This document shows positions 42,265 through 49,144 of a stretch of DNA of 64,000 nucleotides, piece after piece. Location: contig NZ_JACHWJ010000001.1 of assembly GCF_014191305.1 (NCBI RefSeq), forward strand, positions 992,001 through 1,056,000, read 5' to 3'. Source of the stretch: Pseudoclavibacter helvolus. GTDB lineage: Bacteria > Actinomycetota > Actinomycetes > Actinomycetales > Microbacteriaceae. The stretch's first letter is position 1. Each line of letters opens with the position of its first letter. Below the pieces are notes generated by a model. It was not told the origin of the DNA. It worked only from the letters and a program-made list of their open reading frames with translations, and did no database searches. Position numbers and translations under genes: made by a program.

Positions 42265-42647
42265 GCCGGAACTCCGATGAACGAGCTGGCGCCTATCCAG
42301 ATCTGGTGCATCCGGAAGACCATGACGCCGATCGTGAGTGACGCGACTCCGAGGATGATCGTGGACCACTTCGTCCGCTCGACCAGGCCCCAGAAGACGG
42401 CGGCAGGCGGGATGATGATGGCCACGACCCAGTACATCCAGAACTCGAGGGCATCCCCGACGGGCTCGTTGCCCGTCGCGGGTGCGATCAGCGCCATCAC
42501 GAACTGTACGACAAGCAACAGCTCGACGAGTGCGACGGCACCCACAGTGACGTCACCGGGCTTTCGGCCGGTGGCCCCGACGATGATGCAGAAGACACCA
42601 GCTGCGGCGCTCACGAGGCAGAGCACCCACGTGAACCAGTCGATCAC
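42261..42647 (-). CDS. Small integral membrane protein
   Basis: 128 residues, hypothetical, with four predicted helices starting from residue 5 (FTWVLCLVSAAAGVFCIIVG, ALVELLLVVQFVMALIA, MYWVVAIIIPPAAVFWGLV, TIILGVASLTIGVMVF). GTG 42647 overlaps the truB stop (GTGA). Paired with the next small membrane gene by another 4-base overlap; the two may form a complex, but nothing in the sequence shows a function. Confidence 0.83.
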   Translation of the reverse strand: MIDWFTWVLCLVSAAAGVFCIIVGATGRKPGDVTVGAVALVELLLVVQFVMALIAPATGNEPVGDALEFWMYWVVAIIIPPAAVFWGLVERTKWSTIILGVASLTIGVMVFRMHQIWIGASSFIGVPA

Positions 42648-43567
42648 GTGTTGGCCCCCGTCGGCATGTTGAACTCGGACTTCACGACGCCGCCGGCAGC
42701 CCTTGCGATGCCGATGAGGTCGCCTTCCGGGTCGATGGCGGCGAGCAGGCCGTCGTCGACCGGTTCGCTGAGACGGAGCTTCTTCCCGTTGCGGATATCC
42801 GCGGCTTGCTGAGCCGTCGCCTCGAACGCGCGGAACCGACGCAGCGCAGCCTGAGACGGAGTCGTGAGGCGCTTCTCGAGCTCGTCGGCGTCGGGCGCAA
42901 CTGCGTCAGCGATGCTGAAGTCGCCGACGCGGGTGCGCCTGAGGGCCGTCAGGTGCGCGCCCGTGCCGAGCGCTGCGCCGAGGTCTCTTGCCAGCGCCCT
43001 GATGTAGGTGCCGGACGAGCACGAAACGCGGATCTCGAGGTCGACCACGGGCTCACCACCGGCGAGCGCATCGTGCGAGGCGAGCAGCTCGAGCTCGGCG
43101 ATCGTCACGGCGCGGGCTGCGAGCTGCACGTCCTCGCCGTCGCGGACGCGCTTGTAGGCACGCACTCCATCCACCTTGATGGCGCTCACTGAGGATGGGA
43201 TCTGCTTGATCGGTCCGCGCAGCGCGGCCATGGCCGCCTCAATGCGCTCAGGGGTCACCTCGGCGACGGACCCTGCCGGTGCTGTCGCCGTGACCTCACC
43301 CTCGGCGTCCTCAGTGTTCGTCGATACGCCAAGGCGAACCGTGGCGTAGTACTCCTTGTCGTCGCCGACGAAGTAGGTGAGCAGCCTGGTGGCTCCGCCG
43401 ACACCGAGGATCATGAGCCCGGATGCCATCGGGTCGAGCGTGCCGGCGTGGCCGACCTTCCGCGTGCCGAGGGCCCGCCTGGTCATCGCGACGAGCGTGT
43501 GGCTCGTCGGGCCCTGCGGCTTGTCGAGGAGCAGGACACCGTTTGGGCCAGGAGATGCAGTCGTCAT
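42644..43567 (-). CDS. truB: tRNA pseudouridine(55) synthase TruB
   Basis: 307-residue enzyme making pseudouridine 55 in the T-loop of tRNA. N-terminal GVLLLDKPQGPTSH, the catalytic Asp45 in GHAGTLDPMASGLM, DKEYYATVRLG and SCSSGTYIRALARDLG are diagnostic. Normally follows rbfA directly; here the divergent PanE-MutY gene separates them, so truB has its own promoter in the 101-base gap 43568-43668. Confidence 0.97.
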   Translation of the reverse strand: MTTASPGPNGVLLLDKPQGPTSHTLVAMTRRALGTRKVGHAGTLDPMASGLMILGVGGATRLLTYFVGDDKEYYATVRLGVSTNTEDAEGEVTATAPAGSVAEVTPERIEAAMAALRGPIKQIPSSVSAIKVDGVRAYKRVRDGEDVQLAARAVTIAELELLASHDALAGGEPVVDLEIRVSCSSGTYIRALARDLGAALGTGAHLTALRRTRVGDFSIADAVAPDADELEKRLTTPSQAALRRFRAFEATAQQAADIRNGKKLRLSEPVDDGLLAAIDPEGDLIGIARAAGGVVKSEFNMPTGANT

Positions 43568-43668
43568 GTCCCCAATATCTTACGGTGCCCGTAGGCTCGT
43601 TCCCGGCCGTCTGGCGGAGTGCTGACTCCGAGACGGAGTGGATTTGTGTGTGCGAAGGGGAGATCAGG

Positions 43669-45570
43669 ATGCGGGTTGCTGTCATCGGCGCCGGTGCGGT
43701 CGGCGGCGCCCTCGCGCTCCTGCTCGACCGAGCGGGACACGAGGTTGTGCTCGCCTCGCGGAGCGGTGCCGAGCCTGCACGCGGCCGGCGCACGCTGAAC
43801 CTCGCTGGTGCCTTCGGAGAGCACCGCGCGGAGTTCGCTCAGGATTCGCGCCTCTCTGGCACCTTCGATCTCGCGCTTGTCGCGGTGAAGGCACAGGACA
43901 CCCAGCGCGCGGTTGAGCCCCATCTCGCGGTGCTTGCAGCGACGCCCACGATTGTCGTGCAGAACGGCCTCGAGGGGGCAGCGACGGTGGAGCGTCTGAT
44001 CGCCGGTCTGGCCGATCGAAACGCTCGCGGGTTCGTCGCAGGCGGCCTCGCCACCTTCGCCGTGAACAGGCCAGCACCCGACGAGATACGTGCAACCGCC
44101 AACGGTTCGCTGACTCTGGGAACTGCGTCCACTGCGCACACGTCTCGGCTGGAGGAGCTCGCGGTCGCACTCTCCCCCGCCCTCGAGTGTGTGGTCGCAG
44201 ACGACCTGGCTTCTGCGCTCTGGAGCAAGCTCCTCATCAACCAGGTGAACGCGCTTCCGGCCGTAACCGGGCTCAGTGTGCAGGAGGTCGGCCTCGACGC
44301 CGATCTGCTCAGCGTGCTCGCCTCGAGCATCGGCGAGCTGCTCGCAGTGGCCGCAGCGAGCGGTGCCTCGCTTGTCGAGCTTGGCCCACTGGACAGAGCC
44401 CTCGCGGATCTCGCGAACGCCACGCCACTCGACACGGACGAGGAGCTTGCCCGGAACCGGCGGCTCGCGCGGGAGCTGTCCGCGGCCTTCGGGACGACGC
44501 CGAACTACGCATCGACCCAGCAGAGCATCAGCCGCGGCGAGGCAACGGAGATCGACGCGCTCAACGGCGCCGTCGTCTCGCACGGACTCACGCGTGGCCT
44601 TGATGCGCCCGTGAACGAGCTCCTCACCTCGCTTGTGCACGAGAGGGAAGGTGGAGCACCGCAGCTGTCCCCCGCCGAAGTTCGTGGCGCTGTCATCACG
44701 GCGACGGTCAACACTTGGTTCACCAGGGGGAACCGCCAGCTCTCGTGGCGGCTACCCACGACAACTGCTTGGGGTGTCCTCGTGAGCGAGACGATGCTGC
44801 AGCAAACTCAAGCCGCGCGCGTTGAACCGAAGTGGTTGGACTTCATGGAACGCTGGCCGACGCCAGCCACCATGGCAGAAGCCACCGAGGCCGAGGTGCT
44901 CCGGTTCTGGGATCGGCTGGGCTACCCGAGGCGCGCGCTCTGGCTCCTTGCCTGCGCCAGGGAGATCGCTGAAAAGCACGACGGGCGCGTGCCGGATACG
45001 CGGGAAGCCCTGCTCGCGCTGCCTGGCGTCGGGCCGTACACGGCATCGGCGGTCATGTCCTTCGCCCACGGTGTACCCGAACCCGTCGTCGACACGAACG
45101 TCCGCCGCGTCCTCTCCCGCGCCTTCCTCGGCGCAGAGACGCCCTGGGGGCCATCGGCCGTGCGCGACGCGGCAGAGATGCGTGCCGTCGCCCCCGCAGA
45201 CCCAACCGCAGCGAACCTCTGGAACGCAGCGTCCATGGAACTCGGCGCCGTCATCTGCACGGCGAAGCGGCCGAAGTGCGACGATTGCCCCGTCGTTGGG
45301 CTCTGCGCGTGGGTCAGTGCCGGACGGCCCGCCTCGACGACGGTCAAGAGGCGACAGGCGAAGTTCGCCGGATCGGACCGCGAGATGCGCGGCCTGGTGT
45401 TGAGGGAGCTCCGTGCGATCCCAGGGGGCGTTGAGATCGAGTTCCTCCGTGGCCACCTCGACCCGGACGGAGCGGACTCGCTCCGCTTCGACCGAGCGCT
45501 GTCCTCGCTGAAGGATGACGGACTCATCTTCGAGCGAAACCAGGCGGAGATAGCACTGACCGGCGACTGA
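43669..45570 (+). CDS. Fusion: ketopantoate reductase (PanE/ApbA) - A/G-specific adenine glycosylase (MutY)
   Basis: One uninterrupted frame of 633 residues with two enzyme domains. Residues 1-330: 2-dehydropantoate 2-reductase, with the NADPH loop VIGAGAVGGALALLL, catalytic Lys in LWSKLLINQVNALPAV and the substrate Glu in GEATEIDALNGAVV. Residues about 345-630: MutY, with catalytic Glu in VSETMLQQTQ, helix-hairpin-helix LPGVGPYTASAV, catalytic Asp in VVDTNVRRVL and the iron-sulfur ligands C-x6-C-x2-C-x5-C (CTAKRPKCDDC...C). It has no C-terminal NUDIX-like domain, as in short actinobacterial MutYs. I find no in-frame ATG, GTG or TTG with a ribosome-binding site at the junction. ATG 43669 follows GAAGGGGAG. 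Confidence 0.9.
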   Translation: MRVAVIGAGAVGGALALLLDRAGHEVVLASRSGAEPARGRRTLNLAGAFGEHRAEFAQDSRLSGTFDLALVAVKAQDTQRAVEPHLAVLAATPTIVVQNGLEGAATVERLIAGLADRNARGFVAGGLATFAVNRPAPDEIRATANGSLTLGTASTAHTSRLEELAVALSPALECVVADDLASALWSKLLINQVNALPAVTGLSVQEVGLDADLLSVLASSIGELLAVAAASGASLVELGPLDRALADLANATPLDTDEELARNRRLARELSAAFGTTPNYASTQQSISRGEATEIDALNGAVVSHGLTRGLDAPVNELLTSLVHEREGGAPQLSPAEVRGAVITATVNTWFTRGNRQLSWRLPTTTAWGVLVSETMLQQTQAARVEPKWLDFMERWPTPATMAEATEAEVLRFWDRLGYPRRALWLLACAREIAEKHDGRVPDTREALLALPGVGPYTASAVMSFAHGVPEPVVDTNVRRVLSRAFLGAETPWGPSAVRDAAEMRAVAPADPTAANLWNAASMELGAVICTAKRPKCDDCPVVGLCAWVSAGRPASTTVKRRQAKFAGSDREMRGLVLRELRAIPGGVEIEFLRGHLDPDGADSLRFDRALSSLKDDGLIFERNQAEIALTGD

Positions 45571-45587
45571 TCAGTCGCCGGCCAGTG
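45554..45587. terminator. Bidirectional terminator overlapping the fusion gene stop
   Basis: 17-base arms with one mismatch (a G-U pair in the minus-strand RNA) around the TGATCA centre. The stop codon (45568-45570) lies in the left arm. Serves the convergent panE-mutY and rbfA transcripts. Confidence 0.75.
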
Positions 45588-45628
45588 TCGCAGTCGGCCG
45601 CAGCCGAGCAGCTATTCAGCAGGAAGAC

Positions 45629-46063
45629 TCAGGCGCCCTCCGGCTCGTCCTTCTTCTCGTAGGGGTCGGCGTCGCCGGCGTAGCTCGCTGTCTTCGCCTG
45701 CTGGGCTGAGGCCACGTCGCGATCGTGCGCTTCGCGGAGCAGCGCGGCGATTGCATCCGCGTTCTCCGGGATTGCGTCTGGCACGAATTCGAGGCTCGGG
45801 GTGAGGCGCGAGGTGATGTTCTTGCCCACCTCGGTCCGGAGCATGCCGGTCGCGCTCCTGAGCGCGGCCGCTGTGTCCCGTCGCTCCTTCTGATCGCCGT
45901 AGACGGTGTAGAAGATGGTGGCATGTTGCAGGTCACCCGTGACGCGCACGTCCGTGATGGTGACGAACCCGAGCCGCGGGTCCTTGACGCCGCGCTCGAG
46001 CGTCTTCGCGACGATGACCTTGATTCGGTCTGCGAGTCGCAGAGCCCGTGAATGATCAACCAT
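45629..46063 (-). CDS. rbfA: Ribosome-binding factor A
   Basis: 144-residue 30S maturation factor with a KH-like fold: ADRIKVIVAKTLERGVKDPRLGFVTITDVRVT, cited by the landmarks VKDPRLGFVTITDV and LQHATIFYTVYG, and LRTEVGKNITSRLTPSLEF (landmark RLTPSLEFVPD). The C-terminal acidic and Lys tail is typical. Downstream of infB by 154 bases containing a terminator-like hairpin. Confidence 0.95.
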   Translation of the reverse strand: MVDHSRALRLADRIKVIVAKTLERGVKDPRLGFVTITDVRVTGDLQHATIFYTVYGDQKERRDTAAALRSATGMLRTEVGKNITSRLTPSLEFVPDAIPENADAIAALLREAHDRDVASAQQAKTASYAGDADPYEKKDEPEGA

Positions 46064-46170: not shown

Positions 46171-46217
46171 CCCGAGTGTTCGCCGCGCTTTGCTCAGCGC
46201 AGCAGCTCGGTCAACAG

Positions 46218-49067
46218 CTAGACGCGCGGCTTCTCGACGAGCTCAGTCGTCTCGATCTCGTCGCCGATCTGGATGTCGTTGTACTTGCCGAGGCCGATAC
46301 CACATTCGAAGTCCGTGCGGACCTCGGTGACGTCGTCCTTGAACCGACGGAGCGAGTCGATCGCGAGGTTGTCCGCGATGACGATGCCGTCGCGGATGAC
46401 GCGAGCAGTCGCGTTCCTCGTGATAGTTCCGCTGCGGACGATACATCCGGCGATGTTTCCGAACTTGGAGGAACGGAACACCTCGCGGATCTCCGCGACA
46501 CCCGACTGGACCTCTTCGAACTCGGGCTTGAGCATGCCCTTGAGCGAGTTCTCGATGTCCTCGAGCGCTCCGTAGATGACCGAGTAGAAGCGGACATCCA
46601 CGCCTTCACGAGCAGCGCGCTCGCGCGCCTTCGTGTCGGGGCGCACGTTGAAGCCGATGATGATGGCGTTGTCGACCGTGGCGAGGTTGACGTCGGACTC
46701 CGTGATGGCGCCGACACCGCGGTGGATGATGCGCAGCTGCACCGAGTCATCCACATCGATCTTGAGCAGCGACTCTTCGAGTGCCTCGACGGCACCGGAG
46801 ACGTCACCCTTGATGATGAGGTTGAGCGACTCGACCTTGCCCTCTTCGAGTGCACGGGTGAAGTCCTCGAGGCTGATGCGCTTGCGGGACTTGGCGAGGC
46901 TCGCGTTGCGCTCGACGGCTTCACGCTTCTCGGCGATCTGACGCGCAGTGCGGTCCTCTTCCGTGACGATGAAGGTGTCGCCTGCACGAGGAACGCTCGA
47001 CAGGCCCTGCACCTGGACCGGGCGCGAAGGCTCAGCCTCGGTGACGACCTGACCGTTCTCGTCGAGCATTGCCCGGACGCGGCCGTAGGCCGTTCCAGCA
47101 ACGATCGGGTCTCCGACACGGAGCGTTCCCGACTGGATGAGGACGGTTGCGACCGCACCGCGTCCCTTGTCGAGCTTCGCTTCGATCGCGATACCGCGCG
47201 CTTCCTTGTTCGGGTTGGCGCGAAGGTCGAGACCGGCGTCTGCCGTCAGAAGGACCGCCTCGATGAGGCTGTCAATGTTGACGTTGTTGCGAGCAGACAC
47301 GTCGACGAACATCGTGTCGCCACCGAACTCCTCGGCAACGAGCCCGTACTCGGTCAGCTGCGCACGGACCTTGGCCGGGTTCGCGTCTTCCTTGTCGACC
47401 TTGTTGACGGCAACGACGATCGGCACGTTGGCGGCCTGGGCGTGGTTGAGCGCCTCGACCGTCTGCGGCATGATGCCGTCGTCCGCCGCGACCACGAGGA
47501 TCGCGATGTCGGTGACCTGGGCGCCACGGGCACGCATGGCCGTGAAGGCCTCGTGACCCGGCGTATCGATGAACGTGATGGCGCGTTCGATGCCCTCGTG
47601 CTCGTGCCAGACCTGGTACGCACCAATGTGCTGCGTGATGCCACCAGCTTCGCCATCGACGACGTTCGCGTTGCGAATCGCGTCGAGGAGTCGCGTCTTA
47701 CCGTGGTCGACGTGACCCATGACGGTGACGACAGGCGGGCGGATCTCGAGAACGTCGTCGCCTTCGTCCTCTGCTTCCTGGTCGAGGTCGATCGAGAAGC
47801 CCTCGAGGAGCTCGCGGTCTTCGTCCTCCGGGCTGACGATCTGAATGCGGTAGCCCAGCTCTTCGCCAAGCACCTCGAAGGTCGCCTCGTCGAGCGACTC
47901 CGTCGCCGTCGCCATCTCACCGAGGTGGAACAGCACGGTCACGAGGTCACCGGGGCTCGCATCGATCTTCTCTGCGAAGTCCGAGATCGAGGCGCCACGA
48001 CGCAGACGGATCGGCGTCGTGCCGTCTCCGCGACGTACCTTGACGCCACCTACGCTCGGGGCCTCCCGCATTTCGAATTCTGCCCGCTTCGTCCGCTTGG
48101 ACTTGCGAGCCTTCGACTTTCCGCCGCCGCGACCGAATGCACCGGCCGTCGAGCCGCGACCGCGACCGCCGCCACCTGGACGACCGCCGCCACCTGGACG
48201 CGGAGCAAAGCCGCCACCGGCACCTGGAGCGCCGCCTGGACGTCCGCCACCGGCACCGCCGGCACCCGGGCGACCGCCCGGACGACCAGCACCTGCTGGG
48301 CGGGCGCCTGGAAGCACGCGGGGCTGACCCGGACGCGGAGCCGCCGGGCGGGGGCCGCCTGGGCTCTGCGGGCGAGGACCGCCTGCGCCACCTGGACGGG
48401 GGCCGCCACCGGCTCCGCCACCAGGGCGCATGCCCTGGTTCGAGGAGAACGGGTTGTTGCCTGGACGCGAACGGCCCATGCCCTGGCTGGACGCGAACGG
48501 GTTGTTCCCTGGACGCGGGCCTGGACGGGGTCCACGAGGACGCGGGATGGCTGGGCTTGCGCCACCATCAGCCTGCGCGGGCTTTGCGTCGCCGGGAGCA
48601 GCGGGACGCTGCGTGTTCGGCTTCGGCGCGCCCGCGTCCGCTGCGGGTGCAGCAGGAGCGGCTGGCGCGGGAGTCGAGGGCTGAGCCTCAGCAACCGGAG
48701 CCGGCTCAGGCTTGCGCTTGGGTCCAGGGGTCGGAGCCGATGGACCTGCGGCCGCAGCCTTCGGTGCCGGAGCAGCGGGCGCCGCTGGTGCCGACGGGCC
48801 CGGCTTCGTGCCTGGACGGACGCTCGAGGGCTTTGCGCCGCCTGGACGCGGGGCGCCCGGCTTCGACGCCGATGGAGCGGCGGCCTGAGGCTGCGCGCTA
48901 CCGGCGGCGTTGGTTTTCAGCGCCTCGCGGAGGCGACGGGCCACGGGGGGCTCGACGCTCGACGATGCGCTCTTAACGAACTCGCCCATGTCCTGAAGAG
49001 TCTTGAGGGCGGTCTTGGAATCGACGCCCATCTCGCTGGCGATTTCGTGTACGCGTGGTTTTGCCAC
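46218..49067 (-). CDS. infB: Translation initiation factor IF-2
   Basis: 949-residue GTPase that places initiator tRNA on the ribosome. N-terminal IF2_N domain ([16 protein letters not shown]), then residues 55-320 of Ala/Pro/Gly/Arg-rich linker typical of actinobacteria, containing an internal repeat ([13 protein letters not shown] then [13 protein letters not shown]). A second IF2_N-like subdomain precedes the G domain with G1 GHVDHGKT (451-458), G3 DTPGHEAF and G4 NKVD, then domains II-IV. Start GTG 49067, four bases after AGGAG, which lies in the 3' arm of a perfect hairpin. This is by far the largest protein of the block. Confidence 0.98.
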
Positions 49068-49071
49068 TTTT

Positions 49072-49100
49072 CTCCTGTCTGGGGCCCGCCCAGACAGGAG
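49072..49100 (-). promoter_or_regulatory. Perfect hairpin sequestering the infB ribosome-binding site
   Basis: Twelve-base arms CTCCTGTCTGGG (49100-49089) and CCCAGACAGGAG (49083-49072) with a five-base loop. The AGGAG Shine-Dalgarno of infB forms the end of the 3' arm, four bases before GTG 49067. The hairpin could limit infB translation, or act as an attenuator between ylxR and infB, though there is no U-run. Confidence 0.75.
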
Positions 49101-49144
49101 CGGACCATTAAAGTCGGATGTGCCTCATCGTGAGTCACTCATGA

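Follow-up and report, generated by a model that had tools for sequence, protein, structure and literature searches.

A PanE/ApbA ketopantoate reductase and a MutY-like DNA glycosylase are encoded by a single gene in Pseudoclavibacter helvolus. This gene is very probably a genuine, derived panE-mutY fusion restricted to one clade and giving rise to one bifunctional protein, the domains of which most likely have separate jobs. The window, meaning the whole 64,000-nucleotide stretch of DNA that was analysed, contains an open reading frame that runs on the forward strand from an ATG at position 43,669 to a TGA at 45,568-45,570 (43669..45570, +), with 633 codons and no internal stop. This confirmed an earlier proposal, made from the DNA letters alone and referred to here as the sequence-only reading, that one open frame joins the two domains. 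The open stretch extends upstream of 43,669 and includes an ATG at 43,423, but position 43,669 was taken as the start because it has a strong Shine-Dalgarno sequence, AAGGGGAG (43655..43662, +; duplex energy -8.8 kcal/mol), and because this start is common to all five fused genes described below, in which the pairing energy ranges from -8.8 to -10.0 kcal/mol.

The fused gene is flanked by two genes on the opposite strand: a divergent gene (42644..43567, -) which we take from its sequence to be truB-like, and a convergent gene (45629..46063, -) which is presumably rbfA-like. Of 19 loci scanned, 17 had a match to the truB-like gene adjoining PanE, and 17 had a match to the rbfA-like gene on the MutY side; the two loci with no truB-like match are short stretches that may stop before this gene. 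Such truB-like and rbfA-like genes often form one operon, which panE-mutY splits, and relatives share the layout of the window (42644-46063), in which panE-mutY lies on the opposite strand between the two. No promoter-like site was found for the fused gene, and the single terminator-like hairpin found upstream is at chance level (0.8 expected). Beyond these genes, a 985-amino acid open frame at 46176-49133 (+) lies antisense to an infB-like gene and is most likely a side effect of the GC-rich sequence.

The first half of the protein (residues 1-327; 43669..44649, +) is a predicted ketopantoate reductase. Pfam families ApbA and ApbA_C cover residues 3-327, and both scored above their cut-offs (75.4 bits versus 22.2, and 69 bits versus 22.7), as did TIGR00745 (147.4 bits versus 141.35). 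The GAGAVG, lysine and TEID motifs listed in the sequence-only reading are all present. Lys187 (ALWSKLLIN; 44227..44229, +), which we presume to be catalytic, aligned with the conserved lysine of ketopantoate reductase 3hwr (ALWAKLILN), and Glu294 aligned with a conserved residue of the solved enzyme. Both the lysine and the glutamate of TEID, which we take to be active-site residues, aligned with 3hwr and are invariant in all five fused proteins. A Foldseek search with the structural model returned ketopantoate reductases (best match 3hwr, TMt 0.81) and also D-mandelate dehydrogenases, the fold being common to both. In its fold, GxGxxG motif, Lys/Glu motifs and size, the domain resembles the solved ketopantoate reductases 3hwr, 5ayv and 1ks9; however, where the C-terminus of those enzymes ends, the chain continues here into MutY. 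The pathway context also fits a ketopantoate reductase, and the panB and panC families were present in 12 of 12 genomes tested.

The second half carries the MutY catalytic and [4Fe-4S] domain (residues 345-550; 44701..45318, +). Pfam models HhH-GPD, HHH and EndIII_4Fe-2S matched residues 372-546 of the fused protein, the PDB sequence match was to 6q0c (E 2e-43), and the Foldseek matches included MutY 5kn9 (TMt 0.87). Glu374 (44788..44790, +) and Asp475 (45091..45093, +) aligned with Glu43 and Asp144 of the solved MutY (SEVMLQQT and VDGN in 6q0c), and Tyr457 and Asn477 also aligned with active-site residues of that protein. PDB titles name E43, D144 (D144N) and N146 variants of MutY; the residue numbering and the active-site roles, including that of Tyr126, are otherwise partly presumed here. 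By the 6q0c alignment and the EndIII_4Fe-2S match (residues 530-546), the half has an active site of the Glu43/Asp144/Tyr126 type and four putative cluster ligands, Cys530, Cys537, Cys540 and Cys546 (45256..45306, +), which are invariant in all five fused proteins.

The sequence-only reading had called this half a complete MutY. The motifs on which it relied (SETMLQQTQ, VVDTNV and the four cysteines) are present, but the mutY model TIGR01084 gave 192 bits over residues 345-565, below its cut-off of 286.5, and no counterpart of the C-terminal 8-oxoG-recognition domain was found, the best matches to solved MutY proteins stopping near residue 563. Its place is occupied by a short C-terminal extension (residues 570-633; 45376..45567, +), predicted to form three helices and a strand pair and present in all five fused proteins. 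The TIGR01084 cut-off was reached by none of 12 genomes, compared with 7 of 14 control genomes. The low score was not caused by the fusion, since the unfused MutY proteins of 7 comparison genomes scored equally low (190.6-214.3 bits). On the basis of its best PDB matches we describe the half as a short MutY-like glycosylase outside the TIGR01084 equivalog. It has the HhH-GPD domain, the Glu/Tyr/Asp active site and the four cluster cysteines of the solved MutY proteins 6q0c, 1rrq and 5kn8, but differs from them in that its N-terminus is joined to PanE and in that the short helical extension replaces the 8-oxoG-reading domain.

Matches to HhH-GPD other than MutY were also recorded. Among 17 Microbacteriaceae genomes (G000-G009, G011, G012, G017, G025, G029, G223 and G351) the best of these reached no more than 44.3 bits (G017), and three fused genomes (G000, G006 and G007) had other, weaker matches of 22.6-27.9 bits. 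Outside Microbacteriaceae, the top HhH-GPD matches scored 79-90 bits in G037, G058 and G806. Microbacteriaceae may therefore lack endonuclease III, in which case MutY would be their main cluster-bearing glycosylase.

A search for other proteins with the same two-domain order, suggested by the sequence-only reading, found the fusion in 5 of 10 Pseudoclavibacter genomes: the window genome, Pseudoclavibacter sp. AY1F1, AY1H1 and RFBB5, and P. terrae THG-MD12 (the last four being G001, G004, G006 and G007). Their alignments span residues 1-633 and contain no stop, and identity to the window protein is 72-91%. In the remaining five genomes of the genus panE and mutY are both present and adjacent, but separate. 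No further one-frame fusion was seen among the matches listed from 398 family genomes (the five fused ones included), 396 order genomes (E limit 1e-82) or 396 phylum genomes (E limit 1e-75), in overlapping samples with up to three candidates scored per genome, where a strongly diverged fusion would be missed. On plasmids, 108 records matched parts of the protein, and none covered 80% of the query in one place. One scan used two PanE peptides only, so that a fusion lacking those peptides would escape it; its weak matches L048-L051 were left out of the analysis.

Three apparent fusions were rejected. In G271 (locus L073) residues 1-620 fell within one alignment, but a TAG lies between the genes; panE and mutY are in the same frame here, with a GTG of mutY 6 nt away from where the TAG begins, and this locus is close to a fusion by another route. 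In G360 residues 216-621 aligned without a stop, but panE and mutY occupy different open reading frames in different frames, and the metagenome-assembled L042 (55%) is an overlapping gene pair, also in different frames. No fusion was found in L043-L047 or in 17 fetched regions (L072-L088), of which L081 and L085 had no PanE match and L082 and L086 had mutY first. Locus L045 (JABBOB010000001.1) is labelled Acidobacteria, has the Microbacteriaceae order ribF-truB-panE-mutY-rbfA, and shows identities to the window genes resembling those of the Amnibacterium loci L044, L046 and L047; the label is probably a binning error.

The unfused gene pair is widespread in the family. In a sample of 60 genomes of relatives, 20 unfused Microbacteriaceae had a PanE match of about 325 residues or more listed, and in 14 of these panE preceded mutY on the same strand by no more than about 1 kb, the two matches being separated by at most 84 nt in seven and by 429-1004 nt in the other seven. 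In the remaining six the genes were on different contigs (G020, G031 and G035) or about 6 kb apart (G015), mutY came first (G016), or no MutY was listed (G036). Nine unfused relatives were examined at the boundary, and in seven an ATG or GTG of the mutY frame overlaps the panE stop (ATGA or GTGA); these codons are the likely mutY starts. In the other two, counting from the first base of the panE stop, a GTG follows at 16 nt in L076 and at 6 nt in L073. Adjacent panE and mutY genes in Microbacteriaceae thus share the locus, order, orientation and truB-like/rbfA-like flanks of the fused gene, but remain separate genes; in 7 of the 9 examined the stop and start overlap by 4 nt.

The fused junction is shorter than that of the unfused congeners measured. 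The distance from TEID in PanE to WR in MutY is 201 nt in all five fused genes, with no indel, whereas the three unfused congeners that could be measured have distances of 218, 238 and 275 nt (one or both motifs went unmatched in six other rows), so that the fused junction is at least 17 nt shorter. The difference between 218 and 201 is 17, or 2 modulo 3, which is the shift required to bring mutY into the panE frame if the genes overlapped by ATGA. Because the junction is at least 17 nt shorter and the frame arithmetic fits, we infer that a small deletion took the stop and the start together, a model that rests on these three congeners; the fusion is most simply explained by loss of the overlapping stop/start. 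The fused rows form one group with support of 100/100 in both a MutY tree (26 rows chosen from the loci) and a PanE tree (18 rows, 8 of the 26 having no qualifying PanE match), and all rows outside the group are unfused in both, indicating one change of state. In the MutY tree the neighbours of the fused group are, with weak support (80/76), the five unfused congeners; in the PanE tree, which includes one long branch (L079), they are instead G029, G351, G283 and L042 (82/95). The two trees disagree on which unfused lineage is nearest.

Substitution patterns indicate that the whole fused frame is conserved by selection. Between the window gene and that of AY1F1, dN/dS was 0.30 for PanE, 0.11 for the junction (residues 326-350) and 0.09 for MutY (351-560); the corresponding values between P. 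terrae and RFBB5 were 0.27, 0.23 and 0.08. Pooled over all ten pairs, pN/pS was 0.56 for the junction (0.59 for residues 318-345), 0.40 for PanE, 0.21 for MutY and 0.35 for the C-terminal extension. The junction is therefore the least constrained part of the protein, yet its pN/pS is below 1. Over 28 linker codons, changes at codon positions 1, 2 and 3 numbered 3, 2 and 12 in the first of these comparisons (window gene and AY1F1) and 2, 1 and 7 in the second, the excess at position 3 that translation of the linker in the fused frame would produce. Purifying selection acts across both domains and the junction, and the fusion is kept by selection. ApbA_C and the mutY model each have a single match in every one of the five fused genomes, namely the fused reading frame. 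Ketol-acid reductoisomerase, which can replace PanE in some bacteria and might also reduce ketopantoate, was present in 12 of 12 genomes tested, so the sole match does not imply that the fused PanE is essential.

An internal start in the PanE tail or in MutY, giving MutY alone beside the fusion, appears unlikely. In-frame GTG codons occur in all five fused genes at the PVN motif and at VSETML, and in the window genome a CTG at codon 333 follows GGGAAGGTGG, but this CTG is replaced by CTC or TTC in the four other fused genes. The sequence-only reading had found neither a stop nor a start with a ribosome-binding site at the junction. There is indeed no stop, and Shine-Dalgarno pairing is weak at the GTG codons 315 and 323 (-2.8 and -2.2 kcal/mol, compared with -8.8 at the panE start), all ATG, GTG and TTG codons from the PVN motif to the first MutY helix scoring only -1.7 to -4.0 kcal/mol; however, GTG372 (VSETML), inside MutY and after its first helix, has a Shine-Dalgarno-like score of -8.6 (-5.8 to -8.7 in the five fused genes). 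A comparable score recurs at this codon in two of the three unfused mutY genes in which the motif was matched among nine rows scanned (-7.9 in G003 and G005, against -4.3 in G002), and across the fused genes a value of -8.6 or better is reached at 3.6-6.5% of codon positions. Since the junction starts are weak and the VSETML score is both shared with unfused MutY and common by codon position, a single product is favoured, perhaps with a minor second one. It is also possible that the fused chain is cleaved after translation.

That the fusion is an artefact can be largely dismissed. Loss of a stop through a sequencing or assembly error is extremely improbable, since five separate genomes, four of them from different named strains, have the same 201-nt junction with no indel, and five identical errors would be needed. 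Its one point of support is that same-genus relatives have unfused genes. The sequence-only reading would have taken such relatives, together with a frameshift or sequencing error at this junction, as refuting the fusion; the relatives do exist, but the fused state is clade-wide and hence no error. The same reading had also allowed for a read-through artefact of tight gene packing, against which stand the occurrence in five genomes, the fixed junction length and the purifying selection. It is very unlikely that one half is decaying while only the other works: PanE does evolve faster than MutY by the pooled values, but in the two closest pairs its dN/dS stays around 0.3, its catalytic motifs are invariant, and no second ApbA_C match is present in the fused genomes.

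A functional coupling, in which the NADPH or ketopantoate state of PanE regulates MutY, or joint localisation of the two is beneficial, and the fusion was selected for that reason, is improbable. The junction consists of a short loop (residues 328-334) and a predicted helix (335-354; together 44650..44730, +), through which the PanE tail runs into the first helix of MutY in the AlphaFold2 model (mean pLDDT 88.7, pTM 0.82). Block pLDDT is 93-97 over residues 321-350 and falls to 74 at 351-360. A pTM this high may point to defined packing of the domains, and such a predicted ordered junction would fit coupling, as would the persistence of the fusion through divergence to about 72% identity; however, the model was built from a shallow alignment of 17 sequences and came with no inter-domain error estimate. 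An independent fusion elsewhere would have hinted at selection for the pairing, but the origin is single and none recurs among the matches listed in the samples of 398, 396 and 396 genomes. Gene overlap also makes an accidental fusion easy, and among the 14 unfused Microbacteriaceae in which panE closely precedes mutY, seven have the two matches 429-1004 nt apart. The sequence-only reading had suggested that, through the fusion, repair of 8-oxoG mismatches depends on NADPH or pantothenate status. This gained no support, as the neighbouring genes often overlap and a small deletion suffices. Slightly less probable still is a more specific version, in which the shared ordered helix would pack the NADPH enzyme rigidly on the glycosylase, so that nucleotide binding or ketopantoate reductase turnover would alter the grip of MutY on DNA. 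Beyond the predicted ordered junction nothing speaks positively for such metabolic gating, which is possible; if true, it would place oxidative-damage repair behind a direct metabolic gate that became fixed in a single bacterial clade.

We therefore prefer a genuine fusion of two enzymes with separate jobs. In the ancestor of one Pseudoclavibacter clade, a small deletion would have removed both the panE stop and the mutY start of an ancestral gene pair, in which these two signals probably overlapped over four bases. A single ribosome-binding site would now drive synthesis of one 633-residue polypeptide, the N-terminal half of which would reduce ketopantoate with NADPH in the pantothenate pathway, while the C-terminal half would excise adenine mispaired with 8-oxoG or G. 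Most likely the active sites, joined by the short loop and the shared helix, are independent of each other.

No report of a ketopantoate reductase/ApbA-MutY fusion, nor of Pseudoclavibacter with MutY, was found in the open-licence literature. Prokaryotic fusions of metabolic genes are described in the main text of PMC4921024 as two genes joined in one frame, and a word-start search of that main text gave no occurrence of "pantothenate", "pantoate" or "glycosylase". The panE-mutY gene likewise consists of two genes in one frame, but its partners share no pathway; they come from unrelated pathways, and within the genome each is alone in matching its family model. The fusion provides a clean natural example of two unrelated enzymes becoming one protein, apparently through loss of an overlapping stop and start, with unfused congeners at hand for comparison with the fused clade. 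It warns against taking every fusion as a functional link, and offers a ready test of the consequences of forced co-translation of a repair enzyme and a metabolic enzyme.
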